Shown: positions 2,221-27,243 of the stretch, piece by piece | How the letters are laid out: each line of letters starts with the position of its first letter | How positions within the stretch are numbered: position 1 is the stretch's first letter | Assembly: GCA_021771815.1 (NCBI GenBank) | Contig: JAETOE010000013.1 | Location: 1 to 64,000, forward strand | Reading direction: 5' to 3' | DNA: 64,000 nt | Source of the DNA: Roseburia hominis | GTDB lineage: Bacteria > Bacillota > Clostridia > Lachnospirales > Lachnospiraceae | Translations under genes and position numbers: made by a program | The notes under the pieces: model-generated | Databases searched by the model: none | Seen by the model: the letters and a program-made list of their open reading frames with translations, nothing else | What the model was told of the DNA's origin: nothing

Positions 2221-2256
2221 AAGGAGAGCTCTTAAAAGCTCTCCTTTATTTTTATT
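2221..2256 (+). terminator. Rho-independent terminator for the Nudix gene, overlapping the lacI 3' end
   Basis: AAGGAGAGCT-CTTAAA-AGCTCTCCTT followed by TATTTTTATTT. Confidence 0.7.
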
Positions 2257-3251
2257 TCCAAATCCATATGTACCAGTGGTTGTTCCGGTAATTTGTTTGT
2301 CAGCAGATAATCCACGAGCAGTGAAAGGGAACGCGCTCCCTGTTCCTCGGGATGCTGGCAGATGGTTGCGGTGACGATTCCGGATTTCAACATCTCAAGC
2401 GTAGAAGGAACTGCATCGAACGTAATAACAACAGGTAGTTTTGACAGGGAACTGTTCTGGATGGCGCGGCATCCGCCGAAAACGCCCGCTGCGGTAAAGT
2501 AGAGCGCATTGATTTTAGGATGCTCCGATAACATGGCGGAGACAACGTCATAGCTTTGGTAGTCGTCATCATTGTTTTCGCGGATATCCATAATCTGGAC
2601 AGGAAGCTTGTTCGCCTTGACATAATCAGAAAAACCGTGGATACGCTCCTCATGGCAGAGAATGTTGTGTGAACCGGTGACAATGCCAAGCCGGATGATA
2701 CCGGAGGCTACCAATTGAAGCAGGTTCGCGGCAACCCTGCCGCATTTATGGTAATCGCTTCCGACATAAGCGATGCGCCTGGAATTCGGAATATCCGTAT
2801 TGACAGTAACACAGGGAATGCCCGCTTCCCATAATTCATCGATCTTAAGCGCGACCTCAGCGGCATTATACGGGGAGAGAATCAGGCCGTGAATCCCTTC
2901 CTCGCGAAGCATATCTATCCGCTTAAGCTGTGTATGTAAATCAAAGGGGATGCGGTGCAAAAGAACGGTACATCCGTAGATGGAAAGTTCCTCTAACTTT
3001 GCATTCAGACCGTCTACGACCTCATCAAAGAAAGGATTTTCTTCCCCGAAGAGAAGCACGCCGATGACATACTTTTTTTTCTGGGCGGCAAGAGCCATAC
3101 CGGCCTTATTTGGCTGGTAGTTTAAAAGACCTGCAATCTCTAAGACTTTTTTTTCCGTATCTGCATTTACAAACCCGCGGTGATTTAGAACACGGTCTAC
3201 AGTGCCGCGTGACACGCCCGCAAGCTCGGCGATTTCTTTTATTGTAGCCAT
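2232..3251 (-). CDS. LacI-family transcriptional regulator
   Basis: N-terminal HTH MATIKEIAELAGVSRGTVDRVLNHRGFVNADTEKKV plus periplasmic-binding-protein-like domain. Confidence 0.93.
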   Translation of the reverse strand: MATIKEIAELAGVSRGTVDRVLNHRGFVNADTEKKVLEIAGLLNYQPNKAGMALAAQKKKYVIGVLLFGEENPFFDEVVDGLNAKLEELSIYGCTVLLHRIPFDLHTQLKRIDMLREEGIHGLILSPYNAAEVALKIDELWEAGIPCVTVNTDIPNSRRIAYVGSDYHKCGRVAANLLQLVASGIIRLGIVTGSHNILCHEERIHGFSDYVKANKLPVQIMDIRENNDDDYQSYDVVSAMLSEHPKINALYFTAAGVFGGCRAIQNSSLSKLPVVITFDAVPSTLEMLKSGIVTATICQHPEEQGARSLSLLVDYLLTNKLPEQPLVHMDLEIKIKESF

Positions 3252-3380: not shown

Positions 3381-3409
3381 TTGCAAAAAAAAACATTTCA
3401 GTATATGAT
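3381..3409 (+). promoter_or_regulatory. Sigma-A-type promoter for xylB and downstream genes
   Basis: TTGCAA (3381-3386) - 17 nt - TATGAT (3404-3409). Confidence 0.7.
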
Positions 3410-3417
3410 AAACAAAA

Positions 3418-3431
3418 CGTGCACGAGCACG
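3418..3431. promoter_or_regulatory. Putative LacI-family operator
   Basis: CGTGC-A-CG-A-GCACG dyad with central CG, immediately downstream of the -10 box; core matches the site at 16801-16812. Confidence 0.65.
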
Positions 3432-3448: not shown

Positions 3449-4918
3449 ATGCTCTATATTGGAATTGACTTGGGAACTTCTGCAGTGAAGCTTCTTTTAA
3501 TGGGGGAGAACGGTGCGGTAAAGAACATTGTATCCAGAGAATATCCGCTTTATTTCCCGCATCCGGGGTGGTCGGAGCAGAATCCAAAAGATTGGTATAA
3601 CGAAACGATGCAGGGACTTATCGAACTGTTAGAGGGCTTTGATAAGAGCGAGGTGGCAGGTATCAGCTTTGGCGGACAGATGCATGGGCTTGTCATCTTA
3701 GACGAGAAGGATGAGGTGATCCGCCCGGCGATTTTATGGAATGATGGACGTACAATAGAGGAATGCGATTATTTGAACCATGAGATTGGGAAGGATAAGC
3801 TTTCTGCCTGTACTGCAAATATTTCATTTACCGGATTTACAGCGCCGAAACTTCTCTGGGTAGAGAAGAACGAGCCGGAGAATTTTGCTAAGATACATAA
3901 AATCATGCTTCCGAAGGACTATATTGCGTATCGTTTGACGGGTGTGCACTGTACGGACGTGTCGGATGCATCAGGTATGCTGCTTTTGGATGTGAAGAAC
4001 CGCTGCTGGTCGAAGGAAATGTGCGAAATCTGCCACATTTCAGAGGAGATGCTGCCAAAGCTTTACGAGAGCTATGAGTGTGTCGGATGTGTGCTGCCCG
4101 AGATTGCGTCAGAGCTTGGAATATCAGAAACAGTGAAGGTTGCTGCCGGAGCGGGGGATAATGCCGCGGCCGCAGTGGCGACAGGAACGGTCGGCGACGG
4201 AAACTGCAATATCTCACTTGGCACAAGCGGAACGATATTCATTTCATCGAAGACATTTGGCGTCGACGAAAATAATGCACTGCATGCATTCTGTGATGCG
4301 AACGGCGCTTACCATCTGATGGGATGTATGCTTTCTGCGGCATCCTGCAATAAGTGGTGGATGGATGAGATTATCGGCACAAAGGATTACGCGAAGGAAC
4401 AGGAGCAGATTGTAAAGCTTGGCGAAAATCATGTGTACTATCTGCCATATTTGATGGGAGAGCGCTCCCCTTACAACAATCCGAATGCCAGAGCGACATT
4501 TATCGGCATGACGATGGATACGACGCGCGCGGATATGACGCAGGCGGTACTGGAAGGAGTTGCGTTTGCGCTCAGAGATTCGTTTGAGGTCGCAAAATCA
4601 CTTGGCATGAGAATAGAACGCACGAAAATCTGCGGCGGCGGGGCAAAGAGCCCATTGTGGAAGCGCATTATTGCGAATGTACTGAATGTAAAGGTGGACG
4701 TACTGGAGACGGAGGAGGGTCCGTCATTAGGCGGTGCGATGCTGGCGGCAGTTGCATGCGGAGAATATGCATGTGTGGAAGAAGCGGCAGCAAAGATTGT
4801 AAAGGTTGTGGATACGGTAGAACCGGAACCCGGGCTTGCCGCAAAATATGAGGCGCGCTATCAGCAGTTTAAGAATATTTATCCTGCATGCAGAGAACTG
4901 TTTGATAAGATTGTCTGA
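3449..4918 (+). CDS. xylB: Xylulokinase (FGGY family)
   Basis: MLYIGIDLGTSAVKLLLM..., GGQMHGLVILD, ILWNDGRT; start moved to the ATG after the GGAAAGGAGAAGAG RBS. Confidence 0.9.
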   Translation: MLYIGIDLGTSAVKLLLMGENGAVKNIVSREYPLYFPHPGWSEQNPKDWYNETMQGLIELLEGFDKSEVAGISFGGQMHGLVILDEKDEVIRPAILWNDGRTIEECDYLNHEIGKDKLSACTANISFTGFTAPKLLWVEKNEPENFAKIHKIMLPKDYIAYRLTGVHCTDVSDASGMLLLDVKNRCWSKEMCEICHISEEMLPKLYESYECVGCVLPEIASELGISETVKVAAGAGDNAAAAVATGTVGDGNCNISLGTSGTIFISSKTFGVDENNALHAFCDANGAYHLMGCMLSAASCNKWWMDEIIGTKDYAKEQEQIVKLGENHVYYLPYLMGERSPYNNPNARATFIGMTMDTTRADMTQAVLEGVAFALRDSFEVAKSLGMRIERTKICGGGAKSPLWKRIIANVLNVKVDVLETEEGPSLGGAMLAAVACGEYACVEEAAAKIVKVVDTVEPEPGLAAKYEARYQQFKNIYPACRELFDKIV

Positions 4919-5711: not shown

Positions 5712-7196
5712 ATGAACAATATTCCAGAAGTAAAAGTAGGCATCGTAGCAGTCAGCCGGGATTGTTTCCCGGAGTCACTCTCCGTGAACCGCAGAAAGGC
5801 ATTGATAGAGGCGTATGCAAAGAAATACAGTGCAGCAGACATCTATGAATGTCCGGTCTGTATAGTGGAGAGCGAGATACATATGGTGCAGGCATTGGAG
5901 GATATCAAGGCGGCAGGATGTAACGCGCTCTGTGTATATTTAGGCAATTTCGGACCGGAAATCTCAGAGACATTGCTGGCAAAGCACTTTGACGGACCGA
6001 AGATGTTTGTGGCAGCGGCGGAGGAGACGCAGAATAATCTCATTCAGGGACGCGGCGACGCGTACTGCGGTATGTTAAACGCAAGCTACAACTTAAGACT
6101 GCGCAATGTGCACGCGTATATTCCGGAGTATCCGGTTGGCGACGCGGAGGATTGCGCCGACATGATTCACGAGTTTTTACCAATCGCAAGGACAATTGTC
6201 GGACTTTCTGAGCTTAAGATAATTTCCTTTGGACCAAGACCGCTTAATTTTTTGGCGTGCAACGCACCGATCAAGCAGCTCTATAATTTAGGCGTAGAGA
6301 TCGAGGAGAACTCCGAACTTGACCTTTTTGAAGCGTTCAACAAACATGCCAAAGATGCGAGAATCCCAGAGGTTGTAGCGGATATGGAGGCAGAGCTTGG
6401 CGCAGGCAACAAAAAGCCGGAAATTTTAGAGAAATTGGCGCAGTATGAGCTTACTTTATTAGACTGGGTAGAGGAGCACAGAGGTTACCGCAAATACGTT
6501 GCCATTGCAGGAAAATGCTGGCCGGCGTTTCAGACCCAGTTTGGATTTGTTCCATGTTATGTAAATAGCCGTCTGACCGGAAGAGGAATTCCGGTTTCCT
6601 GTGAGGTAGACATTTACGGAACCTTAAGCGAGTTCATCGGAACCTGCGTGAGTGAAGATGCGGTGACGCTGCTTGACATCAACAACTCTGTGCCGAAGGA
6701 TATGTACAAGGAGTCCATTGAGGGGAAATTTGACTATAAGCATACCGATACCTTTATGGGCTTCCACTGTGGAAATACCTGTTCTAAGAAGCTTTCAAGC
6801 TGTGAGATGAAGTATCAGATGATTATGGCAAGAAGCCTTCCGATTGAGGTGACAAACGGAACCTTAGAGGGAGATATCGCACCGGGGGATATCACATTCT
6901 TCCGCCTGCAGTCCACCGCAGACAGCCAGATCCGCGCATATGTGGCAGAGGGCGAGGTACTTCCGGTAGCGACACGTTCCTTCGGAGCCATCGGTGTATT
7001 CGCAATCAAAGAGATGGGCAGATTTTACCGCCATGTATTGATCGAGAAAAATTATCCGCATCACGGCGCAGTGGCATTCGGACATTACGGCAAGGCGCTC
7101 TTTGAGGTGTTTAAGTATCTTGGCGTGCCGATGGAGGATATCAACTACAATCAGCCGGCGTCACTGCCGTATAAGACGGAAAACCCGTTTGCATAA
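5712..7196 (+). CDS. L-fucose/L-arabinose isomerase-family protein
   Basis: Overall FucI/AraA-like length and motifs (GIVAVSRDCFPESLS, VEEHRGYRKYVAIAGKCWPAFQTQFG, GFHCGNT). Confidence 0.8.
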   Translation: MNNIPEVKVGIVAVSRDCFPESLSVNRRKALIEAYAKKYSAADIYECPVCIVESEIHMVQALEDIKAAGCNALCVYLGNFGPEISETLLAKHFDGPKMFVAAAEETQNNLIQGRGDAYCGMLNASYNLRLRNVHAYIPEYPVGDAEDCADMIHEFLPIARTIVGLSELKIISFGPRPLNFLACNAPIKQLYNLGVEIEENSELDLFEAFNKHAKDARIPEVVADMEAELGAGNKKPEILEKLAQYELTLLDWVEEHRGYRKYVAIAGKCWPAFQTQFGFVPCYVNSRLTGRGIPVSCEVDIYGTLSEFIGTCVSEDAVTLLDINNSVPKDMYKESIEGKFDYKHTDTFMGFHCGNTCSKKLSSCEMKYQMIMARSLPIEVTNGTLEGDIAPGDITFFRLQSTADSQIRAYVAEGEVLPVATRSFGAIGVFAIKEMGRFYRHVLIEKNYPHHGAVAFGHYGKALFEVFKYLGVPMEDINYNQPASLPYKTENPFA

Positions 7197-13338: not shown

Positions 13339-15117
13339 ATGCAAAGCTTATGGCAGAAATTTGAACATTTGCTCGATGATTATAAACTAAAGAAAAAACT
13401 GTTGATTATATACATATGCTGTGTGCTGATCCCTTTGGTCGTGACAGACAGCGTCGTGCTCTATATAGTGGTTCATTCCGAGCAGATAGAGAATCAGCAC
13501 GTTATGGAGAATGATGCAAGCGCAGTACAGTACAGTTTATCTAACATTATAGAGCGTGCAGCCGGCACGGCGAAAAACATCTACATGAATGAGTATGTGG
13601 AAAAGTTTCTTAACACAGAATATGAATCGGAACTGGATTATGTTGTTGCATATCATACGTTTATGAAAAATTCACTGTTTGACGGCAGTATCGGGCTGGA
13701 TAACATGCAGATCACAATCTATGCGGACAATGATACGGTTGTAAACGGCGGTGTATTTTGTAAGCTTTCTTCCATACGGGAAACGGAGTGGTACGAGTAT
13801 CTGCAGCAATCAGGTCAGGATTCCGTGCTGTATTTTTACTATGATGATTCAAAAAGCCCGGCAGTTGATGCAAAACGTAAGCTTTGCTTTATACGCAAAA
13901 TGGATTTTTTTGGTGCTGACAGCTGTGAAAAGGTAGTCCGGGTTGAGATCGATTACAGCAATCTTGTGCGGGTATTAAATAATATGAATTATGAGTCACG
14001 TGTGTACATATGCAAGGACGGTAAGATTTTGCTGTCAAACGATGGCTACAGCAATGTCGGGCAGGATTTTGCGGTATTTGAAAAACATGATGAGGTAGGT
14101 TATGAAAGGGAAATCAGCTACTATGGAGCGGTATGTCAGCTTTATATTTTAAGCGGAAAGAAAGGTGTTATAGAGTCAATAAGAGATAATATGCCGCTGA
14201 TTTTGCTGCTGGTATTAAGCAATACCGTGCTGCCTTGGATAATGATGAGCCAGATTAACCGTTCCATTATCATGCGCATGCAGGAATTAAGCCGTGCTTT
14301 TGAGAGTGTAGACAAGGATAGACTGATGGAGCTTAAAAGAGTGAGAGGGAAGGATGAAATCGGCAGCCTGATGCAGAATTATAATCGTATGGTGCGAAGG
14401 ACAAACGAACTGATACAGACGGTGTATAAGGAGAGGCTGCGGGAACAGGAGATGGATATTGCCAGGCAGAATGCGGAACTGCTGGCGCTGCACAGTCAGA
14501 TTAACCCGCATTTTCTGTTTAATGCGCTGGAAAGCATCCGAATGCACAGTATATTAAAGCAGGAGTATGAGACTGCCGATATGGTGGAGAAATTAGCCAT
14601 TATGGAGCGGCAGAATGTAGACTGGGGCAATGATATTGTGGAAATCAAGCGTGAGATAGAATTTGTAGAAGCCTATCTTGGCTTACAGAAGTACCGGTTC
14701 GGGGAGAGGCTTTCTTATGAATTAGACATTGACGCTGCGTGCATGGAACTTTATATACCAAAGCTTACGATTGTGACGTTCGTTGAGAACGCCTGCGTGC
14801 ACGGAATAGAGAGTAAAACTGCACCGGGATGGATTTTTGTGCGTGTTTTCAAGGAGGAACAGATGCTTTGTATTGAAATCGAAGACACCGGAGACGGACT
14901 TGACGAGGAACAGCTTGCGGCGCTTCGCCAACGGATGCAGGAAGCGAGCATTGAGAAATTAAAAGAAAAGGGGCGTGTGGGCATGTTGAACGCCTACCTG
15001 CGTCTTACGATGATGACAGAAAATAAGGCGCAATTTGTAATTGAAAGCGAAAAGGGTGCAGGCACAATGGTACAGATTCACATTCCGCTTGAAAAGCTTT
15101 CCGGAAATGTTGTGTAA
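13339..15117 (+). CDS. Sensor histidine kinase, YesM type (dCACHE-like/HAMP/His_kinase)
   Basis: Two TM segments, LHSQINPHFLFNALESIRMHS, VENACVHGIE N-box. Confidence 0.92.
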   Translation: MQSLWQKFEHLLDDYKLKKKLLIIYICCVLIPLVVTDSVVLYIVVHSEQIENQHVMENDASAVQYSLSNIIERAAGTAKNIYMNEYVEKFLNTEYESELDYVVAYHTFMKNSLFDGSIGLDNMQITIYADNDTVVNGGVFCKLSSIRETEWYEYLQQSGQDSVLYFYYDDSKSPAVDAKRKLCFIRKMDFFGADSCEKVVRVEIDYSNLVRVLNNMNYESRVYICKDGKILLSNDGYSNVGQDFAVFEKHDEVGYEREISYYGAVCQLYILSGKKGVIESIRDNMPLILLLVLSNTVLPWIMMSQINRSIIMRMQELSRAFESVDKDRLMELKRVRGKDEIGSLMQNYNRMVRRTNELIQTVYKERLREQEMDIARQNAELLALHSQINPHFLFNALESIRMHSILKQEYETADMVEKLAIMERQNVDWGNDIVEIKREIEFVEAYLGLQKYRFGERLSYELDIDAACMELYIPKLTIVTFVENACVHGIESKTAPGWIFVRVFKEEQMLCIEIEDTGDGLDEEQLAALRQRMQEASIEKLKEKGRVGMLNAYLRLTMMTENKAQFVIESEKGAGTMVQIHIPLEKLSGNVV

Positions 15118-15134: not shown

Positions 15135-16724
15135 ATGCTTCAGGTTTTATTGGTGGACGACGAGCCGTTTATTGTGCAGGGATTATCCGTGCTTATTGAT
15201 TGGGAGAAAGAAGGGTATGAGATTGCGGCGACAGCGGCGGATGGAAGCGAAGCGCTGGAGTATTTAAAGGAGCATACGGTAGACCTTATTATTGCAGATA
15301 TCAAGATGCCGGTGCTGACCGGAATAGAATTGCTGCAAAAAATTCGGAGGGAAGAGATTTCTGACGCTTACTTTGTGATATTGAGCGGCTACAGTGATTT
15401 TGGCTATGCGCAGCAGGCGATTCGTTATACATGCATGGACTATGTGCTAAAGCCGGTAGAAAAAGAAGAATTGCTCGGTATTCTGCGCAAGGTGGCAAAA
15501 ATGTCGGAGAGCAGCATGCAAGATGCCCGGAACAAACAGAAGTTTGAGCAGGCGTATCTGGCAAGAAATGTGATGTCGCTCCTTTTCGGAAAGTCCGACG
15601 GGGTGAATTTGGATTACGTAAAGAATCATATGCAGTTGTCGGAAGGAGTACGCTATATTGATATTGAATTCTGTGAGACTATGGAGCTGGAGGAACAGGA
15701 GGAGGGAGAACTGCGGAAACTGCAGCGCCGCTTATATCAGGCATGTCAGGATTTCTTAAAGGAAGATGAAGGACACTGCATTTTTGATGTGTCACAGGAC
15801 GAAAAGAGTTATGATATCGGCTTTATCTATTGTGATTATATGGCGGCAAAGCAGGAATGCACCGAGGAAGAGTATCTGTGGGGATTTCATAAAAATTTGG
15901 AGACGGTGCTGCAGCATCCGGTGCGTATGCTGGTAGGGAAAAAGGTCGCGGATATCTCCGCGGTTGCGAAATCTTATAGCGCGTCCTGTGTCTTAAAATC
16001 GTTGGAGGCATTCCGCGAGAAAAAAGCGGTTTATTTTTATGAGGAGGAGGTGCAGATTAATCAGGGCGGTATCGTGCTCTGCAAACAGAGCCTTGATGCC
16101 TTGCTTGCGGCGATTGAACAGAACGGAAAAACAGAAATTCGCAAATGTGTGGATCAGCTCTACGAGGAGATGCGGCGGATGGGAGTTATCGGTGACACGA
16201 TGAACCTCAACATCAATTATCTTCTTTTTCAATTAATACACCTGGCGACAGAGCAGGATGATTGCGTAAATCAGGAGGAAATACTGCACTATATCAGTGA
16301 GAGCTCCTTTGAGGAAGGAATCCTGCGCGGAAGCCGGGCGCATCTTGCGAGATTTGCGATTGAATATGGGGACTATCTGACCCAGCTTCGGAAAAATGTG
16401 TCGCGTGGTGTGTTGGCGGAGATAGAGCGCGAAGTGCGTGAAAATTATGCGGAGAATTTAACCCTGCGTGAGTTGAGCCAGAAATATTATGTGAACAGCG
16501 CGTACCTGGGACAGCTGTTCCGCAAAAAGTACGGGATCTCCTTTAAAGAATACCTTAATAACTATCGTATGGAGCAGGCGGCGCAAAAGCTGCTTCGGAC
16601 GGATGATAAGATATACCAGATTGCACAGGAGGTTGGTTATAAAGACCTGGATTATTTTATTAACCGATTTATCGCAGCAAAAGGCTGCACACCTGCAAAA
16701 TTCCGCAAGCAGGGCGGAAAATAA
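15135..16724 (+). CDS. Response regulator with AraC-type HTH (YesN type)
   Basis: N-terminal REC (LLVDDEPFIVQGL...IADIKMPVLTG) and C-terminal AraC domain (YYVNSAYLGQLFRKKYGISFKEYLNNYRMEQA). Confidence 0.93.
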   Translation: MLQVLLVDDEPFIVQGLSVLIDWEKEGYEIAATAADGSEALEYLKEHTVDLIIADIKMPVLTGIELLQKIRREEISDAYFVILSGYSDFGYAQQAIRYTCMDYVLKPVEKEELLGILRKVAKMSESSMQDARNKQKFEQAYLARNVMSLLFGKSDGVNLDYVKNHMQLSEGVRYIDIEFCETMELEEQEEGELRKLQRRLYQACQDFLKEDEGHCIFDVSQDEKSYDIGFIYCDYMAAKQECTEEEYLWGFHKNLETVLQHPVRMLVGKKVADISAVAKSYSASCVLKSLEAFREKKAVYFYEEEVQINQGGIVLCKQSLDALLAAIEQNGKTEIRKCVDQLYEEMRRMGVIGDTMNLNINYLLFQLIHLATEQDDCVNQEEILHYISESSFEEGILRGSRAHLARFAIEYGDYLTQLRKNVSRGVLAEIEREVRENYAENLTLRELSQKYYVNSAYLGQLFRKKYGISFKEYLNNYRMEQAAQKLLRTDDKIYQIAQEVGYKDLDYFINRFIAAKGCTPAKFRKQGGK

Positions 16725-16732
16725 ATGATGTA

Positions 16733-16777
16733 CAGGGCAAAGTATAGTTTGGAATCTATACTTTGCCCTGTTTTTTT
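16733..16777 (+). terminator. Strong rho-independent terminator after the response regulator
   Basis: CAGGGCAAAGTATAG-TTTGGAAT-CTATACTTTGCCCTG followed by TTTTTTT. Confidence 0.92.
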
Positions 16778-16792
16778 ATATGCTTTCTCCGG

Positions 16793-16820
16793 TTGTTAAT
16801 GTGCGCGTGCACGGTAAAAT
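16793..16820 (+). promoter_or_regulatory. Promoter for the SBP/ABC operon with embedded LacI-type operator
   Basis: TTGTTA (16793-16798) - 16 nt - TAAAAT (16815-16820); spacer contains GTGC-G-CG-T-GCAC (16801-16812). Confidence 0.6.
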
Positions 16821-16878
16821 AGAATTATCAAATCAAGCAGGAATTGACTTGATGAATAAAAAAAGGGAGGAAGTATTT

Positions 16879-18579
16879 GTGAAGGCAAAAAGAGTAATGT
16901 CAGCATTGCTGGTGTCAGCAATGACAGCGTCCATGTTTACGGGATGCGGTGATGGAACAACGGGGGCAGATTCCGCAAGCGTAGGGGATACGCAGAGCAG
17001 TGAAAATGAGGAGGGGGTAAAGGAATTTACAGCATTCTTTGCAGTTCCCGGTACAGAAATCAATGATGATAATGAGATTCAGGAGAAAATCGCAGAGATT
17101 ACCGGGGTGAAGGTGAAGGAGACATGGCTGACCGGTCAGAAAGCACAGGAAGCGGTTGGTACATTAATCGCCGGCGGCGAGTATCCGGACTTTATCGATG
17201 GCGGTGATGGAATGGCGCAGCTCTATGATGCAGGTGCATTGATTCCACTGGATGATTATATTGATAAATATCCCAATATTAAGGAATTCCTGACAGAGCA
17301 GGAATGGGATAAATTACGTCAGGATGATGGACATATTTATTGGATCCAGCAGTTCGGCAATATCTACGGCGACGAAAAAGCGACCACACACAATGACGAG
17401 GCATTCTGGATTCAGACGCGTGTCCTTGAGTGGGCAGGCTATCCCGAAGTACATACCATGGATCAGTATTTTGATTTGATTGAAGCGTACAATGAAGCAA
17501 ATCCGACGATGGAAGACGGGACAGAAAATATTCCATATACGATTCTTTGTGATGACTGGCGTTATTTCTGTCTGGAAAACGCACCGGAGTTTCTGGATGG
17601 ATACCCGAACGATGGATCTGTCATTGTAGATCCAAAAGAGCTTAAGGTTATTGACTACAATACGACTCCGACAGCAAAACGTTATTTCCAGAAATTGAAT
17701 GAGGAGTACCAGAAAGGAATTGTAGATTCGGAATCCTTTACACAGACCTATGACGAGTATATTGCAAAGCTTTCTACCGGGCGCGTTCTGGGTATGATAG
17801 ACCAATGGTGGGATTTTGCATATACCGCAGGCGATTCTTTAAAGCAGCAGGGCTTAGATAAACAGGGCTGCGCTTATGTTCCGCTTCCGATCACAATTGA
17901 AGAGGGAATGCAGAATCAGTGGCACAACTCCGGCGGAGTTCTTAATGTTGCAAGCGGCCTTGGAATTTCCGTAGATTGCGACGATGTCGAGGGTGCATTA
18001 CAGTTTGTGGATGATCTGCTCGGACAGGAAGTGCACGATCTGCGTTTCTGGGGAGTAGAAGGCGAAGATTATTTAACAGATGAGAACGGCGAATATTATC
18101 GTACAGATGAAATGAGAACGAATGCGTCCGACACAGCATATAAGGCATCTCACCTTTGTACATACTCTTATTTCCCGCAGTATTCAGGAACAAGCCGTGA
18201 CGGAGTAAACGCAATGAAACCCGAGTATCAGGCAAAAGAATTCTACGACAGCTTATGTACAAATGTACAGGAATGCTTTAAAGCATACGGTGCAGAGACT
18301 TATGTAGATATGCTTGGAACAAGCGAGGCGCCGGGGCCGTGGTATCCGATGTATTCCCACTCTAATAACATGACGACCGAAACAGAAGGCGGTCTTGCAT
18401 GGACAAAAATGGGTGAAGTAAAACATGAATACTTACCACAGGTGGTTATGGCTGCAGACTTTGAAAGTGCATGGGCAGATTACATGGAGATATATGATTC
18501 ATGCAATCCACAGGCGTTTATCGACGAAATGCAGGCGGAATTAGACCGCAGAATGGAAGAAGCGGCAAAATATGAGTAA
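16879..18579 (+). CDS. Extracellular solute-binding lipoprotein, CUT1-type oligosaccharide ABC transporter (SBP1)
   Basis: GTG start after GGGAGG RBS; VKAKRVMSALLVSAMTASMFTGC lipobox; LipO-like SBP fold pattern. Confidence 0.88.
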   Translation: MKAKRVMSALLVSAMTASMFTGCGDGTTGADSASVGDTQSSENEEGVKEFTAFFAVPGTEINDDNEIQEKIAEITGVKVKETWLTGQKAQEAVGTLIAGGEYPDFIDGGDGMAQLYDAGALIPLDDYIDKYPNIKEFLTEQEWDKLRQDDGHIYWIQQFGNIYGDEKATTHNDEAFWIQTRVLEWAGYPEVHTMDQYFDLIEAYNEANPTMEDGTENIPYTILCDDWRYFCLENAPEFLDGYPNDGSVIVDPKELKVIDYNTTPTAKRYFQKLNEEYQKGIVDSESFTQTYDEYIAKLSTGRVLGMIDQWWDFAYTAGDSLKQQGLDKQGCAYVPLPITIEEGMQNQWHNSGGVLNVASGLGISVDCDDVEGALQFVDDLLGQEVHDLRFWGVEGEDYLTDENGEYYRTDEMRTNASDTAYKASHLCTYSYFPQYSGTSRDGVNAMKPEYQAKEFYDSLCTNVQECFKAYGAETYVDMLGTSEAPGPWYPMYSHSNNMTTETEGGLAWTKMGEVKHEYLPQVVMAADFESAWADYMEIYDSCNPQAFIDEMQAELDRRMEEAAKYE

Positions 18580-18596
18580 CCAATAAATATACTTGG

Positions 18597-18648
18597 AACA
18601 GGCAGATGCATATACCGCGGATGGTGGCAGTATCATCTGCCTGTTTTT
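18597..18648 (+). terminator. Intra-operon stem-loop with short T tract between SBP1 and permease (attenuator-like)
   Basis: AACAGGCAGATG (18597-18608) / CATCTGCCTGTT (18634-18645) followed by TTT within a 5-T run. Confidence 0.7.
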
Positions 18649-18674
18649 GGGAAAATGGAAGGATGGAGGTAGCT

Positions 18675-19631
18675 ATGGCTTCTTTAGCAGGTAAGAAAAA
18701 GAACAAAATAAAAGAGCCGGAAATAAAAATAACATGGAAGGAAATAAAGCGTCAGAAGGTACTTCTGTTTTGGGCGGCATTGATTGTTGTCTATGGAATT
18801 ATTTTCTATTATTTGCCTTTGGGCGGCTGGCTGATGGCGTTTGAGAATTATAAACCGAAAGCCGGTTTGCTTCATTCTGAGTTTGTAGGACTTGCAAAAT
18901 TCAGGCAGTTGTTTTCTGACGCGGCTTTTTTAAAGGTAATCCGCAATACGCTGGCAATGGGAGTCATTAATCTGGTAGTTACCTTTGTAATGGCAATTGT
19001 TTTTGCAATTTTATTGAACGAGGTGAAGTCGAAGGGCGGCAAAAAGACCGTACAGACAATATCGTATCTGCCGCACTTTTTATCATGGATCATTGTTACC
19101 GGAATTTTGCATGATGCATTGTCTACTACCGGTATTATCAATGAGTTGTTATTAAAATTTGGAATATTAGATCAGCCGTTGAACTTTTTCGCACATCCGG
19201 AATTTTTCTGGCCGATTGTAGCCTTTGCGAATGTCTGGAAGGAAACAGGCTGGAATGCGATTATTTATTTGTCCGCAATTACGGCGATTGATCCGTCTCT
19301 CTATGAGGCTGCAAATATTGACGGAGCAGGCAGATGGGCAAGAATTAAATACGTGACATTGCCGGGAATTAAGCCGACAATTATGATTTTGCTTTTGATG
19401 AATGTCGGAAATGTTTTAAATGCAGGATTTGAGATTCAATATTTGTTAGGAAACGGATTGGTACAAAGCGTTTCCCAGACAATTGATATCTATGTGCTGA
19501 AATGGGGAATCAGTCAGAATGACTTTTCCATTGGTACCGCGGCCGGAATTTTCAAGAGTCTGGTCAGCATCATATTAATTGTTATTGCAAATCAGATTGC
19601 AAAGCGCAATGGGGATGAACGGCTGTTTTAG
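18675..19631 (+). CDS. ABC transporter permease (LplB-like)
   Basis: Multiple TM helices and EAA-like loop YEAANIDGAGRWARIKYVTLP; ATG after GGAGGT RBS. Confidence 0.92.
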   Translation: MASLAGKKKNKIKEPEIKITWKEIKRQKVLLFWAALIVVYGIIFYYLPLGGWLMAFENYKPKAGLLHSEFVGLAKFRQLFSDAAFLKVIRNTLAMGVINLVVTFVMAIVFAILLNEVKSKGGKKTVQTISYLPHFLSWIIVTGILHDALSTTGIINELLLKFGILDQPLNFFAHPEFFWPIVAFANVWKETGWNAIIYLSAITAIDPSLYEAANIDGAGRWARIKYVTLPGIKPTIMILLLMNVGNVLNAGFEIQYLLGNGLVQSVSQTIDIYVLKWGISQNDFSIGTAAGIFKSLVSIILIVIANQIAKRNGDERLF

Positions 19632-19661
19632 CGGAAGTGGGATATCAGTTTGGAGGTTGGC

Positions 19662-20564
19662 ATGAAGAAATATAGAGAAAGAAAAAGAAAGACGTCAATT
19701 TGGGATAGAGTGTTTGTGGTTTGTAATACCATATTTATGATCGCGTTTGTAATTATTACCCTTTATCCGGTTTTGAATACACTTGCAATATCGTTCAATG
19801 ATGGAACGGACGCATTGCGTGGAGGAATTTATTTAATTCCCAGAAAATTTACATTAAAAAACTATGTAACGGTACTGCAAAAGAATAATTTGATTACCGG
19901 GGCGTACATTACAGTGGCAAGAACGGTGATCGGAACCTTTCTTTCGCTTGTTGTAAATGCGATTCTGGCATTTATCGTGAGCAGAAAACGCTTTTTGTTT
20001 AAAAAGCAATTGTCTCTTTTCTGGGTAATCACGATGTATGTAAACGGAGGAATGATTCCGACCTTCCTGCTATATAAGGGATTGGGACTTACGAACAGCT
20101 TCTGGGTATACGTCATTCCGGGAATGGTCAGTGCATTTAATATGTTGGTAATCCGCACTTATATGAATGGCATTCCTGACAGTCTGGAAGAGTCGGCGCA
20201 ATTAGATGGCGCCGGTTATACGACTATTTTTGCAAAAATCATATCGCCATTATGTAAACCTGTTTATGCGACGGTAGCGTTGTTCGTGGCGGTGGGACAA
20301 TGGAATTCATGGTTTGATGCAATGCTTTACAATCGTATGAGTGATAATCTCACAACGCTGCAGTATGAGTTGATGAAGCTGTTGTCCTCTGTTACAAATC
20401 AGGGAACGTCCGCTGAGGTAATGAAAAATGCAGCGGGTGCGGTAACGCCTGCTTCCGTACGTGCGGCAGCAACCATTCTTACGATGCTGCCGATCGTCTG
20501 CCTGTACCCGTTTTTACAGAGATATTTTGTAACAGGTCTTACCATCGGCGGTGTAAAGGAATGA
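19662..20564 (+). CDS. ABC transporter permease (MalG/YtcP-like)
   Basis: EAA-like loop EESAQLDGAGYTTIFAKIISPL; RBS TTTGGAGGTTGG. Confidence 0.92.
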   Translation: MKKYRERKRKTSIWDRVFVVCNTIFMIAFVIITLYPVLNTLAISFNDGTDALRGGIYLIPRKFTLKNYVTVLQKNNLITGAYITVARTVIGTFLSLVVNAILAFIVSRKRFLFKKQLSLFWVITMYVNGGMIPTFLLYKGLGLTNSFWVYVIPGMVSAFNMLVIRTYMNGIPDSLEESAQLDGAGYTTIFAKIISPLCKPVYATVALFVAVGQWNSWFDAMLYNRMSDNLTTLQYELMKLLSSVTNQGTSAEVMKNAAGAVTPASVRAAATILTMLPIVCLYPFLQRYFVTGLTIGGVKE

Positions 20565-20602: not shown

Positions 20603-21754
20603 ATGGGAGAGGGCGCATTTAAGACGGGAATATATCGCAATGCTTTTGCGGATGCAGGATATTCCGCCGTGGAAATTCAAAAGAGAAAAGATGAAATTTT
20701 TCAGACTCTGTTTTATGGCAGCGAGAAAGAAAGACTCTATCATCCGGTGGGCGATGATATGGGATATATGGAGGATACCGGAAACCATGATGCGCGCACG
20801 GAGGGAATGTCTTATGGCATGATGATGTGCGTACAGATGGACAAAAAGGAAGAGTTCGACCGCTTATGGAAATGGGCGAGAACTTACATGTATTTGACAG
20901 AGGGCGAAAACGAGGGATATTTTGCATGGTCCTGTCAGCTAGACGGAACAAAAAACTCCTATGGCGCGGCGCCGGACGGGGAAGAATTTTTTGCGATGGC
21001 ACTATTTTTTGCGGCGCATCGATGGGGAAACGGAAGCGGGATTTTCGATTATGAGAAAGAGGCGAAGGAGCTGCTTCATACGTGCATTCACAAAGGAGAG
21101 AACAATACTCCCGGACGCGCCATGTGGGATGCGGATAATAAGCTTATCCGGTTTATCACGGATGTGGATTTCTCAGACCCGTCCTATCATCTGCCGCACT
21201 TTTACGAATTGTTCGGCAGATGGGCGTATGAGGAGGACCGGCCGTTCTTTCTGGAGGCGGCAAAGGCAAGCAGGGAGTATTTAAAAACCGCCTGCCATCC
21301 GGTGACCGGACTGTGTGCAGAGTATGCCTATTACGATGGAAGTCCCTATACGGAAGGAAGAGAAATATGGGGAGGAAGGCATGACTGGTATTACAGCGAC
21401 GCGTACCGCACGATTGGAAATATTGCGCTGGACTACGCGTGGTTTGCCGCGGATGGCTGGGCTGTTTTGGAAGCGGACCGATTGCAGCGTTTTTTTTGCG
21501 AGACCTTGAAGGAGACGGAGCGGGAAGGAATTTATACGGTGGATGGAAGGGTTCTTGAAGGAAAAGCACTGCATCCGGTAGCGATCATTGCCGTAAATGC
21601 GCAGGCGAGCCTGATAACAGAGAGCGCGAACGCTAAAGCGTGCCTGAAAAAATTCTGGGAGACACCTCTTCGGAGCGGAGACAGACGGTATTATGATAAT
21701 TGCCTGTATTTCTTTGCATTTTTAGCGTTAAGCGGAAGCTATCGAATATATTAA
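20603..21754 (+). CDS. Glycoside hydrolase family 8, reducing-end xylose-releasing exo-oligoxylanase-like
   Basis: DARTEGMSYGMMMCVQMDKKEEFDRLWKWARTYM, PDGEEFFAMALFFAAHRWG; cytoplasmic (no signal peptide). Confidence 0.88.
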   Translation: MGEGAFKTGIYRNAFADAGYSAVEIQKRKDEIFQTLFYGSEKERLYHPVGDDMGYMEDTGNHDARTEGMSYGMMMCVQMDKKEEFDRLWKWARTYMYLTEGENEGYFAWSCQLDGTKNSYGAAPDGEEFFAMALFFAAHRWGNGSGIFDYEKEAKELLHTCIHKGENNTPGRAMWDADNKLIRFITDVDFSDPSYHLPHFYELFGRWAYEEDRPFFLEAAKASREYLKTACHPVTGLCAEYAYYDGSPYTEGREIWGGRHDWYYSDAYRTIGNIALDYAWFAADGWAVLEADRLQRFFCETLKETEREGIYTVDGRVLEGKALHPVAIIAVNAQASLITESANAKACLKKFWETPLRSGDRRYYDNCLYFFAFLALSGSYRIY

Positions 21755-21779
21755 GGAATGGAAAAGAGAGGAAAATAAC

Positions 21780-23327
21780 ATGTATTATGTAAAAAATCCT
21801 ATTCTTCCGGGTTTTTGTCCGGACCCGTCGATTTGCAGAGTCGGTGGGGACTATTATCTGGCTGTATCGAGTTTTTCATATTTCCCGGGCGTGCCGTTAT
21901 TCCACAGCAAGGATCTTGCACATTGGGAGCAGATAGGGAATGTCTTAGAGCGCGCATCGCAGCTTCCGCTCGCCGGAAGCGGGCATTCGCAGGGAATTTA
22001 TGCGCCCACGATACGCTATTATGACGGCACATTTTATATGATTACGACCAATGTTTCTGCAGGCGGAAACTTTATCGTTACCGCAGCAAATCCCGCTGGA
22101 CCGTGGTCGGATCCGTATTGGCTGGGGGAGGAAGCGCAGGGAATTGATCCGAGCTTATTTTTTGACGATGACGGAACCTGTTATTATATTGGCACCAGAC
22201 CAAATCAAAAGGGTGTGCGTTACAACGGGGATTGGGAAATTTGGGTTCAACAGTTAGACTTATCTGTAATGCGTCTGGTTGGTGACAGTAAAAAAGTGTG
22301 GAAAGGGGCAGGACATCATGTCATCTGGCCGGAGGGCCCCCATCTTTATAAGAAAGACGGTTATTACTATCTGATGCATGCAGAGGGCGGAACTGCCGAT
22401 AATCATGCGGTTGCAATTGCGCGGAGCAAAGAATTGTGGGGACCATATGAGGGATGCCCGAACAATCCGATTTTTACGCACCGCCATCTGGGCGCGGAAT
22501 ATCCGATTACCGCAGTCGGACACGGAGATTTGGTCGCAGATGAGAATGACAACTGGTATATGGTGATGTTAGGAAGCAGACGCTGCGGGGGGCATGTGAA
22601 TACCGGCAGAGATACCTATCTGGCAAAAGTGACATGGGAGAACGGCTGGCCTGTTGTAAATAAAGGGATCGGAAGGCTCGAAGAGCTGGTGGAACTGCCG
22701 GGCGAGGCGGTGTATCTTATGCCGGAGGAAAAATCGTGGCACTTTTACAGAGACGAACTGCCGAAGTGCTTTCTGACGCTGCGCGGCAGAGAACAGATAT
22801 ACAGCCTTATGCCGTCAGAGGGCAGACTGCGTTTATATACGGCAGCAGATTCTCTGAAGGATTGTGGTACTCCTGCATATGTGGCGGTACGGCAGCAGGA
22901 ATATGAGTATCGCGTGGCGGCACTTATGGAGTTTACACAGGGAGCAGACCATGAAGAGGCTGGTATTGCAGTGCTTTGCGATGAAAAAAATCATATGCGT
23001 CTGGTAAAGCGTTATAGGAACGGAGAGCCGGAAGTTTTACTGATGCTTTATGAAAAAGGGAAAGAGCGTGCCTTGGCAAGCCAGAAAGTGGCAGAGGGCA
23101 GGCTGGAACTGAATATGGTGTGCCACGGACAAAAGAGTGACTGGTATGTTGTACAGGAGAACGGCGCCACAATATGTCTTGCGGCAGGAGTTGACATGCG
23201 GATGTTAAGCACAGAGTGTACCGGCGGTTTTACCGGTTGCACATTGGGAATGTATGCTTCGGCAAATGGTAAGACAGAACAGCATTATGCAGATTTTTTC
23301 TGGTTCTGCTGTGAGGAGATACGGTAG
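21780..23327 (+). CDS. Glycoside hydrolase family 43 (beta-xylosidase/arabinofuranosidase) with C-terminal beta-sandwich
   Basis: NPILPGFCPDPSICRVGGDYYLAVSSFSYFPGVPLFHSKDL; C-terminal ConA-like region. Confidence 0.92.
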   Translation: MYYVKNPILPGFCPDPSICRVGGDYYLAVSSFSYFPGVPLFHSKDLAHWEQIGNVLERASQLPLAGSGHSQGIYAPTIRYYDGTFYMITTNVSAGGNFIVTAANPAGPWSDPYWLGEEAQGIDPSLFFDDDGTCYYIGTRPNQKGVRYNGDWEIWVQQLDLSVMRLVGDSKKVWKGAGHHVIWPEGPHLYKKDGYYYLMHAEGGTADNHAVAIARSKELWGPYEGCPNNPIFTHRHLGAEYPITAVGHGDLVADENDNWYMVMLGSRRCGGHVNTGRDTYLAKVTWENGWPVVNKGIGRLEELVELPGEAVYLMPEEKSWHFYRDELPKCFLTLRGREQIYSLMPSEGRLRLYTAADSLKDCGTPAYVAVRQQEYEYRVAALMEFTQGADHEEAGIAVLCDEKNHMRLVKRYRNGEPEVLLMLYEKGKERALASQKVAEGRLELNMVCHGQKSDWYVVQENGATICLAAGVDMRMLSTECTGGFTGCTLGMYASANGKTEQHYADFFWFCCEEIR

Positions 23328-23369
23328 AGGGACGGTATCTGCCGGGAAGGATATCTGACAGGAAATCAG

Positions 23370-23398
23370 TTGCCGGGAAAATAAGAACCCCTTATAAT
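23370..23398 (+). promoter_or_regulatory. Internal promoter upstream of the second SBP
   Basis: TTGCCG (23370-23375) - 17 nt - TATAAT (23393-23398); the listed ORF start at 23397 overlaps the -10, so translation more likely starts at 23424. Confidence 0.55.
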
Positions 23399-23423
23399 GG
23401 AAAATGAAAAGGGGGGAAGTGTC

Positions 23424-25085
23424 ATGTATAAACGGATAAAAAATGCACTGGGCTTATTGTTGGTTTCCGGTATGCTGATAATCGTAATTTTTCAGGAAAA
23501 CGGATATATTAAAGCGCAGGAGACGAAAGAGTTTACAGCTTTTTTTGCCGTGCCGGGAAACACAAAGGACGACTACAATGAGGTACAGGAGCTGATTGCG
23601 GATATCACGGGCGCAAAATGTCAGGAGATATGGCTTGTGGGGCAGACACAGGAGGAAGCGATTGCATCTTATATTGCAAGTGGAGAATACCCGGATTTTA
23701 TTTCGGGGTGCGCGACATTGTATGATGCAGGTGCATTAATTCCGATTGATGAGTATTGGGATAACTATCCGAATATCCGCAGCTATATGTCAGATGGTGA
23801 GTGGGACAGACTGCGGCAGGCAGATGGACATATTTATTGGATTCCTCAGTTTGGTATTGTCAAAGGAGAAGCGACAGAGGTCGTACATGAAGGGGAGGCA
23901 TTCTGGATACAGACGCGCGTTTTAAAGTGGGCAGGCTACCCGAAGATAAGTACAGTCGAGGAGTATTTTGCATTGATTGAAGCATACATGGAGGCAAATC
24001 CCTGCATGGAGAGCGGAGAGGAAAATATTCCGTTTACGATTCTTTGCGATGATTGGCGATATTTTTGTTTGGAAAATCCACCGCAGTTTTTAGACGGCTA
24101 CCCGAATGACGGAAGCTGTGAGGTGGAGCCGGAGACATTGACAGTGATTGACTACAATGTGACGCCTACAGCCAAGCGTTATTTTTCAATTTTGAATGAA
24201 GCGTATCACGCAGGGATGATTGATCCGGAATCCTTTACGCAGACCTACAGCGAGTATTTAGAAAAGCTTGCGTCCGGCCGAGTGCTTGGAATGGTGGATC
24301 AGTGGTGGCAGTTCTCCTATGATGTGAACGATTCGTTAGCGCGCATGTCGACGCAGGGGTGCAGTTATGTACCGCTGCCGGTTACGATAGAGACCGGAAT
24401 AAAGAATCAGTGGCATGTGAAGCGTGGTAACGATACTGATATTGCAACAGGACTTGCAATTACAACAGGCTGTGAAGATATCGCAGGGGCATTGCAGTTC
24501 GTAAATGATTTATTGGACGATGAGGTGTTGAAGCTGAGGTTTTGGGGCGTAGAAGGCGTTGATTATGAGGTGGATGAGAACGGCGTTTTTTATCGGACAG
24601 AGGAACAGCGCCTTAATTCGCAAAAGAACGATTATATGGCGTCACATTTTTGCTTCTATCCTTATTTTCCAAGGCTGGAGGGGATCTTAGAGGATGGTAA
24701 GAATGCCTTTTCGCCGGAATACCAGCCGGAGGAATTTTTAACTGATCTGCCGGACGATATCGAAGAGTGCTTTGCGGCATATGGATGTCAGAATTATGTG
24801 GATATGCTGGGTACGAACGAGCCGCCCGGAGCATGGTATCCGATGTATTCACATTCCGATACATTGACATCGGAGCAGGAGGCAGGACGTGTATGGCGTG
24901 CCATGACAGAGGTAAAGCAGGAATATCTGCCGATGGTGATAATGACAGATAACTTTGAAGAAATGTGGGAACAGTATATGCAAAGCTATGAGGCGTGTCA
25001 TCCGGAAATCTTTTTTGAGGAAATGCAAAGAGAGGTAGATCGCAGAGTAGCTATTGCGGATGAGGTATCCCCTTATGAGGAATGA
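23424..25085 (+). CDS. Second extracellular solute-binding protein, paralog of SBP1, no lipobox
   Basis: Extensive similarity to SBP1 (EFTAFFAVPG, ILCDDWRYFCLEN, DGYPNDGS, YVDMLGT, WYPMYSHS); N-terminus MYKRIKNALGLLLVSGMLIIVIFQENGYIKAQ has no Cys. Confidence 0.88.
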   Translation: MYKRIKNALGLLLVSGMLIIVIFQENGYIKAQETKEFTAFFAVPGNTKDDYNEVQELIADITGAKCQEIWLVGQTQEEAIASYIASGEYPDFISGCATLYDAGALIPIDEYWDNYPNIRSYMSDGEWDRLRQADGHIYWIPQFGIVKGEATEVVHEGEAFWIQTRVLKWAGYPKISTVEEYFALIEAYMEANPCMESGEENIPFTILCDDWRYFCLENPPQFLDGYPNDGSCEVEPETLTVIDYNVTPTAKRYFSILNEAYHAGMIDPESFTQTYSEYLEKLASGRVLGMVDQWWQFSYDVNDSLARMSTQGCSYVPLPVTIETGIKNQWHVKRGNDTDIATGLAITTGCEDIAGALQFVNDLLDDEVLKLRFWGVEGVDYEVDENGVFYRTEEQRLNSQKNDYMASHFCFYPYFPRLEGILEDGKNAFSPEYQPEEFLTDLPDDIEECFAAYGCQNYVDMLGTNEPPGAWYPMYSHSDTLTSEQEAGRVWRAMTEVKQEYLPMVIMTDNFEEMWEQYMQSYEACHPEIFFEEMQREVDRRVAIADEVSPYEE

Positions 25086-25101
25086 TAAGGAGCTTGAATA
25101 G

Positions 25102-27243
25102 ATGAATAGACAGGAAGCAAGAAAAAGAGCAGAAGCATTGGTAGGTCAGATGACACTTGAGGAGCGGGCAAGCCAGCTTAGATATGATGCGCCGCCAATC
25201 CGCAGACTCGGCATACCGGCATATAACTGGTGGAATGAGGCTTTGCATGGTGTGGCGCGTGCAGGACAGGCAACAGTATTTCCACAGGCAATCGGCATGG
25301 CAGCAACATTTGATGCGGATTTGCTGGAACAGATCGGAAATGCAGTGGCAACGGAGGGCAGGGCAAAGTATAATGCGTATGCGGCGTGTGACGACAGAGA
25401 TATTTATAAAGGGCTGACCTTCTGGGCGCCAAATGTGAATATTTTCAGAGATCCGCGCTGGGGCAGAGGACACGAGACATATGGAGAGGATCCTTATCTG
25501 ACAAGCCGCCTTGGGGTGATGTATGTGAAGGGGCTGCAGGGCACGGGTGAGACGATGAAGGCGGCTGCCTGCGCGAAACATTTTGCAGTGCATTCAGGAC
25601 CGGAGGCGCTTCGCCATGAATTTGATGCAAAGGCAAGCAAAAAGGACATGAATGAGACATATCTGCCGGCATTTGAGGCATTGGTAAAAGAGGCGGATGT
25701 AGAGGCGGTTATGGGGGCTTACAACCGTACGAACGGTGAGCCGTGCTGCGGCAGTAAGACGTTGATTGCGGATATACTGCGCGGCGAATGGGGCTTTCAG
25801 GGACATTTTGTGTCGGATTGCTGGGCATTACGGGATTTTCATGAGAATCATATGGTCACACGCACGGCGGAGGAATCGGCTGCGATGGCAATTAATGCGG
25901 GATGTGATTTAAATTGTGGTGTGACCTATTTACATATTTTAAAGGCATATGAGGAGGGACTTGTAACTGAGGAGACGATTACCGAGGCGGCAGTACGTCT
26001 CTATACAACGAGATATCTGTTAGGCTTGCTGGACGGCTGCGAATACGATACGATTCCTTATGACAAGGTGGAGTGCAGGGAGCATCTGGCATTGGCAAAA
26101 AAAGCAGCCGAGGAGAGCTTCGTTTTACTCAAAAACGATGGCATTTTACCACTTCATAAGGATAAGCAAAAGACGATTGGAATCATAGGCCCGAATGCGA
26201 ACAGCAGGGCGGCATTGATTGGTAACTATCATGGAACTGCATCTGATTATGTGACAATTCAGGAGGGAATCCTGCGCTATGTCGGGGAAGATGTGCGCGT
26301 ACTGACCTCCATTGGGTGTGAATTGTTCCGCGACCGCACGGAGTCGATTGCCATGCAGCGTGACCGTCTGATGGAGGCGCGGATTGTGGCAGAGCAGAGT
26401 GATGTTGTTTTATTATGCCTGGGATTGGATGAGACTCTGGAGGGAGAGGAAGGAGACGCCGGAAACAGCTATGCCTCCGGAGATAAGGAAAGCCTGCTCC
26501 TGCCGGAAGTGCAGCGTCTTTTGATGGAGACCGTCGCTGCGACAGGAAAGCCGGTCGTGCTCTGCATGATGGCCGGAAGTGATATAGACCTTTCTTATGC
26601 AAGAGAGCATTTTAATGCGATTCTTCAGATGTGGTATCCGGGATCACAGGGTGGCAATGCGGCTGCGCGAATTCTTTTTGGAGAAGTGTCTCCGTCCGGG
26701 AAGCTTCCGGTGACGTTCTATGAGACCCTGGAGGAACTGCCGGAGTTTACGGATTATTCTATGGAAGGAAGAACTTACCGCTATATGAAGAATGCCGCAC
26801 AGTATCCGTTTGGCTTTGGACTGACCTATGGAAAGGGGCGTGTAGTGGATGCCAGGTTGGAGAAACGCGATTCTGGTCGTTCAGTGAAAATGACCGGCAC
26901 TGTGTCAGCGGCTGAGTCTGAGTATGTGATGTGCGCAACGGTGAAGAATGAGAGTGATGTGGATATCGAGGAAGTTCTTCAGATATATGTAAAGAAAATG
27001 GATTCCGCCTATGATACATTGCATCCGTCTCTCTGTGCGTTTACACGTGTTGCGCTCACGGCGGGGGAAGAAAAAAAAGTTGGCGTTGTGCTGCCGGAGT
27101 CTGCATTTACAGTTGTGGATGAGGACGGAAGGCGTTTTAAGGACGGAAGACGTTTTAAATTTTATGCAGGCTTCTCTCAACCGGATGCAAAGAGTGTGGA
27201 ACTGACGGGAAGCGCACCGGTGGAAGCAGAGATAGAAATATAA
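25102..27243 (+). CDS. Glycoside hydrolase family 3, beta-xylosidase-like
   Basis: RLGIPAYNWWNEALHGVARAGQATVFPQAIGMAATFD, MGAYNRTNGEPCCGS, VSDCWALRDF nucleophile region. Confidence 0.92.
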   Translation: MNRQEARKRAEALVGQMTLEERASQLRYDAPPIRRLGIPAYNWWNEALHGVARAGQATVFPQAIGMAATFDADLLEQIGNAVATEGRAKYNAYAACDDRDIYKGLTFWAPNVNIFRDPRWGRGHETYGEDPYLTSRLGVMYVKGLQGTGETMKAAACAKHFAVHSGPEALRHEFDAKASKKDMNETYLPAFEALVKEADVEAVMGAYNRTNGEPCCGSKTLIADILRGEWGFQGHFVSDCWALRDFHENHMVTRTAEESAAMAINAGCDLNCGVTYLHILKAYEEGLVTEETITEAAVRLYTTRYLLGLLDGCEYDTIPYDKVECREHLALAKKAAEESFVLLKNDGILPLHKDKQKTIGIIGPNANSRAALIGNYHGTASDYVTIQEGILRYVGEDVRVLTSIGCELFRDRTESIAMQRDRLMEARIVAEQSDVVLLCLGLDETLEGEEGDAGNSYASGDKESLLLPEVQRLLMETVAATGKPVVLCMMAGSDIDLSYAREHFNAILQMWYPGSQGGNAAARILFGEVSPSGKLPVTFYETLEELPEFTDYSMEGRTYRYMKNAAQYPFGFGLTYGKGRVVDARLEKRDSGRSVKMTGTVSAAESEYVMCATVKNESDVDIEEVLQIYVKKMDSAYDTLHPSLCAFTRVALTAGEEKKVGVVLPESAFTVVDEDGRRFKDGRRFKFYAGFSQPDAKSVELTGSAPVEAEIEI

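Follow-up and report, generated by a model that had tools for sequence, protein, structure and literature searches.

LacI-family pentose regulons are a well-known type, of which the regulon predicted here for Roseburia hominis is a further example, sound and coherent. Its nearest functional parallel is in our analysis XynR of Anaerocellum (Caldicellulosiruptor) bescii, also a member of the LacI family, which has an operator in the gap that separates its gene from xylB, and which controls xylan transporters and xylan enzymes alongside a second regulator, as parallels the Roseburia case (PMC12285236). However, the XynR operators are cre-like, e.g. AATCGAAATCGCTTACAATT, whereas the Roseburia operator is GTGCNCGNGCAC and does not fit the cre-like core (…AAANCGCTTWC…) of Table 1 in that study, and the XynR paper names no transaldolase/transketolase operon, unlike the Roseburia regulon (PMC12285236). 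The XylR regulons of Firmicutes control xylB and XylA-II of the PF02952 type, enzymes shared with Roseburia, but XylR is a ROK-family protein that is unrelated to LacI and has a different operator (PMC2873477); the regulator adjacent to xylB here belongs to the LacI family and not to ROK.

In Roseburia intestinalis XB6B4, the locus gpPUL Ros-5 is given by gene content, with no operator or regulon named in the text consulted, and is assigned to xylan and arabinogalactan; its description lists GH3, GH8, GH43, GH115 and ABC transporters, and an HK, an AraC-type RR and LacI in one locus, all as here, with GH2, GH42 and GH53 as extras (PMC5320581). The Cphy2742 LacI/GalR regulon of Clostridium phytofermentans, a plant-fermenting relative, was predicted from motifs located at transcription starts or 3′ of them, but differs in its galacturonate/pectin targets and its cre-like operator (PMC5171806). 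The Roseburia half-sites (GTGC/GCAC) are also distinct from those (GAAA/TTTC) of the B. subtilis type cre consensus recognized by CcpA, TGAAAGCGCTTTCA (PMC5171806). No description of the motif or of the regulon in Lachnospiraceae was found in the open-access literature searched.

Regulator, predicted operators and promoters in the window

The window is the whole stretch of 64,000 nucleotides analysed here (positions 1 to 64,000, forward strand, of contig JAETOE010000013.1 in assembly GCA_021771815.1; the genome is 3.74 Mb), and its features are collected in Table 1.

Table 1. Features of the xylB and SBP/ABC loci in the 64-kb window
Feature	Position	Strand	Remarks
LacI-family regulator, recognition helix SRGTVDRVLN	2232–3251	−	LacI HTH and Peripla_BP_4 domain
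Weak second site GTGCTCGGTAAA	3328–3339	.	One half and centre, 3 mismatches; adjoins lacI promoter
xylB promoter: TTGCAA (3381–3386), 17-bp spacer, TATGAT (3404–3409)	3381–3409	+	Layout kept in relatives
Putative LacI-type operator GTGCACGAGCAC, 9 bp 3′ of xylB −10	3419–3430	.	Kept in 32/34 xylB-adjacent LacI loci
xylB, xylulokinase	3449–4918	+	TIGR01312, 576 bits (cut-off 380)
PF02952 sugar isomerase	5712–7196	+	Profile match
YesM-like kinase	13339–15117	+	
YesN-like AraC-type response regulator	15135–16724	+	
Intrinsic terminator 3′ of yesN	16732–16771	+	16-bp stem, −27.2 kcal/mol, z −7.6
Direct repeat TATACTT (16757–16763) / TATGCTT (16779–16785), 22-bp period, 5′ of −35	16757–16785	+	Candidate YesN site
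SBP operon promoter: TTGTTA (16793–16798), 16-bp spacer, TAAAAT (16815–16820)	16793–16820	+	Core kept in relatives
Putative LacI-type operator GTGCGCGTGCAC in −35/−10 spacer of SBP/ABC promoter	16801–16812	.	Exact motif match; 1-mismatch counterparts in G046, G004, G047
SBP lipoprotein (16879–18579) and two ABC permeases, transporter behind SBP promoter	16879–20564	+	
GH8, GH43, putative second SBP, GH3 downstream of transporter	20603–27243	+	

The regulator has the composition of a LacI-family protein, with an N-terminal HTH (PF00356, 53.7 bits) and a periplasmic-binding-protein-like ligand domain (PF13407, 132.9 bits), both above cut-off. The ligand domain is nearest by sequence to monosaccharide-binding proteins, including 5xsj/5xss, which we take to be the Clostridium xylose sensor XylFII. 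Ten LacI-type HTH matches were counted in the genome. The recognition helix is identical in every orthologue in which it was read, and differs from the helices of the four paralogues, out of nine, that could be read. The isomerase has only a sub-threshold match to sulfoquinovose isomerase in NCBIfam, and, since a classical XylA did not turn up in the genome, is probably the working xylose isomerase, of the XylA-II type. In C. acetobutylicum, XylA-II, which likewise belongs to PF02952, has been shown by experiment to be a xylose isomerase (PMC2873477). Given xylB, this isomerase and the missing classical XylA, xylose is the likeliest effector, judging by neighbouring genes and domain similarity. 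A DUF4867 protein (PF16161, 4962–5585) lies between xylB and the isomerase gene; it is present in several relatives and missing from others.

Exact matches to GTGCNCGNGCAC occur twice in the window, against a chance expectation of 0.07 (100 dinucleotide shuffles), and none of the 100 shuffles reaches two. Both operator sequences and their positions in the original prediction were borne out, including the placement of the second copy between TTGTTA and TAAAAT; what had been called the same 12-bp operator is, however, a shared motif and not an identical 12-mer, as the copies agree at 10 of 12 positions. Outside these two sites CGTGCACG occurs once, at 14796, as had been claimed. Two-mismatch matches are at background level (24 observed, 23.7 expected), so only near-exact sites were counted and the looser ones were disregarded. 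The weak second site beside the lacI promoter is possibly, at low confidence, an autoregulatory half-site; a similar half-site is also seen in L024–L026.

The strong terminator predicted upstream of the SBP promoter is real. The promoter itself, with a sigma-70 match of 9/12, by itself scores no better than shuffles, but its core is kept in relatives. Spacing suggests that the genes from 20603 to 27243 are probably in one transcription unit with the SBP/ABC genes. The protein encoded at 23397–25085 has no Pfam match at 0.001 but shares 61% identity with the SBP of 16879–18579; on this likeness it is taken as the second solute-binding protein of the cluster.

Distribution in the genome and conservation with the regulator

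Five exact sites are present in the genome, and the reversed-pattern control gave none. Contrary to a random scatter in coding regions, three of the five are located in promoters, namely those of xylB/isomerase, the SBP/ABC transporter and a transaldolase operon on another contig, C59, all of which precede pentose genes. The raw count is unremarkable because a rough base-composition estimate gives 2.8, and the case rests on promoter position, gene function and conservation rather than on the number of sites. The third promoter site is outside the window, at C59:1764 (within 1763–1776 of L007, G000:C59), directly 5′ of the transaldolase gene; the gene order there is presumably araA, the site, a transaldolase/fructose-6-phosphate-aldolase-like gene, transketolase subunits, an AraD-like epimerase and a GalM-like mutarotase. 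A distal variant, GTGCACATGCAC, in which CA replaces the central CG, is found 89 bp 5′ of the proximal site (C59 1674–1687), and is also kept in G053, G046 and G052. The two remaining exact sites, presumably within recN and pyrC, were rejected as operators, since both fall within reading frames and neither has the A that follows GTGC in 30 of 34 xylB sites. When one mismatch was allowed in a 14-bp form, 30 sites were found in the genome (13 in the reversed control), of which 26 are in ORFs and were rejected for that reason, and the other four are promoter sites (xylB, SBP and two at C59).

In a sample of 60 genomes of the genus, the LacI orthologue was found in 23, including the genome of the window. 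Of the 19 examined genomes with LacI, 18 have a site with at most one mismatch in the 400 bp that precede xylB; of the 11 without LacI, one does. For the proximal promoter of the transaldolase gene, the corresponding numbers are 11 of 16 and none of 14. Fisher tests that ignore relatedness gave P = 4e-6 (xylB) and 8e-5 (transaldolase), values that overstate independence because the genomes are related. The lone LacI-less genome with a xylB site (G001) has it at −34, close to a contig edge, and could have lost its LacI gene from view at that edge; its transaldolase gene has a distant one-mismatch match at −242, outside the proximal promoter.

Over the genus and the sampled Lachnospiraceae, 34 LacI orthologues adjoin xylB, and a search of the 500 bp upstream of lacI placed a site between the two genes in 32 of them (31 exact, one with a mismatch). 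No site is present at the four LacI loci that are not close to xylB or to the isomerase gene. Oriented to the neighbouring catabolic gene, the 34 aligned sites give YGTGCACGNGCACR with an invariant central CG, and most of them follow a TATGAT-like −10 at a distance of about 10 bp. The site is an even palindrome with a central CG upstream of sugar-utilisation genes, which is the form that LacI-family regulators typically bind (PMC4052901), and, as in a local pathway regulon, it is common to promoters of functionally linked genes and conserved together with the regulator.

The SBP promoter among relatives

SBP orthologues were found in 11 sampled relatives, making 12 loci with the window, each with YesN immediately 5′ of SBP. 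A CTCCGGTTGTT-like block and GGTAAAATAG recur in the aligned promoters whether LacI is present or not, and the spacer varies. The spacers form a graded series: nothing operator-like is seen in G052, G026, G034, G016 and G014 (the promoter of G010 is unrelated), a degraded version is present in G019, copies with one mismatch occupy the same promoter position in G004, G047 and G046, all of which have LacI, and the match is exact in the window. The one-mismatch copies carry different bases at the free positions, and in G046 the sole change in a nearly identical promoter falls within the operator. Three relatives with LacI as well as SBP lack the site (G052, G026 and G010), as do three without LacI.

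Because the spacer operator is exact, mismatched or missing while the promoter core and YesN are constant, it seems to have been added, in a lineage-specific way, to a promoter that was already tied to YesN; the alternative history is that it was lost in several lineages. A TATNNTT direct repeat with a 22-bp period is kept just 5′ of the −35 in eight of nine promoters examined, again with or without LacI, and is a candidate YesN site, although its conservation may have another cause because the first copy overlaps the terminator stem. So, the YesM/YesN pair that was suggested as a second layer of control has gained indirect support from this repeat and from the constant neighbourhood of YesN, while YesN action at the promoter is inferred. 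Returning to lineage-specific gain, we read the SBP promoter, with middling confidence, as a two-input gate in evolution: an ancestral YesM/YesN-activated promoter, with direct repeats 5′ of its −35, would have gained a LacI operator in one lineage, in the free spacer between the conserved −35 and −10. If true, the transporter would answer both to an intracellular pentose repressor and to an extracellular oligosaccharide sensor.

Alternative explanations and predicted regulation

The palindrome at 16801–16812 very probably serves as operator for the LacI-family regulator of 2232–3251, which would be a local repressor for a pentose, most likely xylose. By the distribution of its sites, the conserved core of the predicted regulon is xylB/isomerase and the transaldolase–transketolase operon outside the window, and the SBP copy is a lineage-specific extension. 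The claim that one LacI regulator serves both the catabolic and the transport operons is well supported by the co-occurrence of sites and orthologue, the promoter positions and the invariant helix. Counted against it are the three SBP promoters without a site despite LacI, the location of the sole G046 change inside the operator, and the absence of the transaldolase site from five of the 16 genomes with LacI.

These absences, together with a promoter core and YesN adjacency that are kept without the operator, are what would be expected if the xylB and transaldolase sites were real operators and the SBP copy a chance match, with the transporter under YesM/YesN alone. We regard this as improbable, as an exact match at 10 specified bases is not readily expected in an AT-rich promoter when the figure for the whole window is 0.07, the mismatched copies of G046, G004 and G047 keep the position but not the free bases, and the site at 16801 has, on its minus strand, the preferred A after GTGC. 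Binding by another regulator, e.g. CcpA or a LacI-family paralogue, is less probable still: the number of LacI-type HTH matches in the genome leaves room for it, but site presence tracks the orthologue of the xylB-adjacent LacI, the half-sites are unlike cre, and the paralogues that could be read carry different recognition helices. That every match is a chance recurrence of a GC-rich palindrome is hardly credible. The exact count is near its base-composition estimate, two exact sites are in coding DNA, and the many matches in GC-rich relatives (34 in G001) look like an effect of base composition; against this, the sites keep their promoter positions from genus to genus in intergenic DNA that is otherwise different, and in practice this footprint refutes the chance reading.

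Under regulation by the xylB-adjacent LacI protein, the CG-centred even palindrome would be the binding site of a dimer. The site positions predict repression by exclusion or roadblock: at the SBP promoter the bound repressor would fill the −35/−10 spacer and exclude RNA polymerase, and at xylB and the transaldolase operon, where the site follows closely on the −10, it would stop initiation or promoter escape. Release of the repressor by intracellular pentose, probably D-xylose, would open uptake, xylulose formation and the pentose-phosphate steps together, and the YesM/YesN system would probably activate the SBP promoter in addition; binding, repression, effector and YesN action are all read from sequence here. 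The predicted regulon would tie the uptake of xylan sugars to an XylA-II-type xylose pathway and a transaldolase/transketolase step, and its clear operator makes it open to testing as a pentose regulon in a major family of gut fibre degraders. For genetic work on Roseburia-like bacteria it supplies a candidate operator–repressor pair, and it exemplifies the apparent addition of a LacI operator to a two-component-linked promoter.

In the lacI–xylB intergenic regions of relatives (L046–L063, L225, L232, L237), a second site near the lacI start is present in 18 loci, and could possibly serve autoregulation or looping. In 10 of these its distance to the xylB-proximal site is 122–128 bp, and the spacings show weak helical phasing (Rayleigh P = 0.006–0.018). 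DNA looping is not claimed, as the spacing clusters perhaps come from common ancestry and, taken by themselves, the five distinct spacing classes do not reach significance. In L028, L029 and L030, more distant LacI orthologues (49%) have GTGCACGTGCCC-like sites upstream of the LacI gene, which apparently adjoins a sugar ABC transporter gene and does not have xylB as its neighbour.
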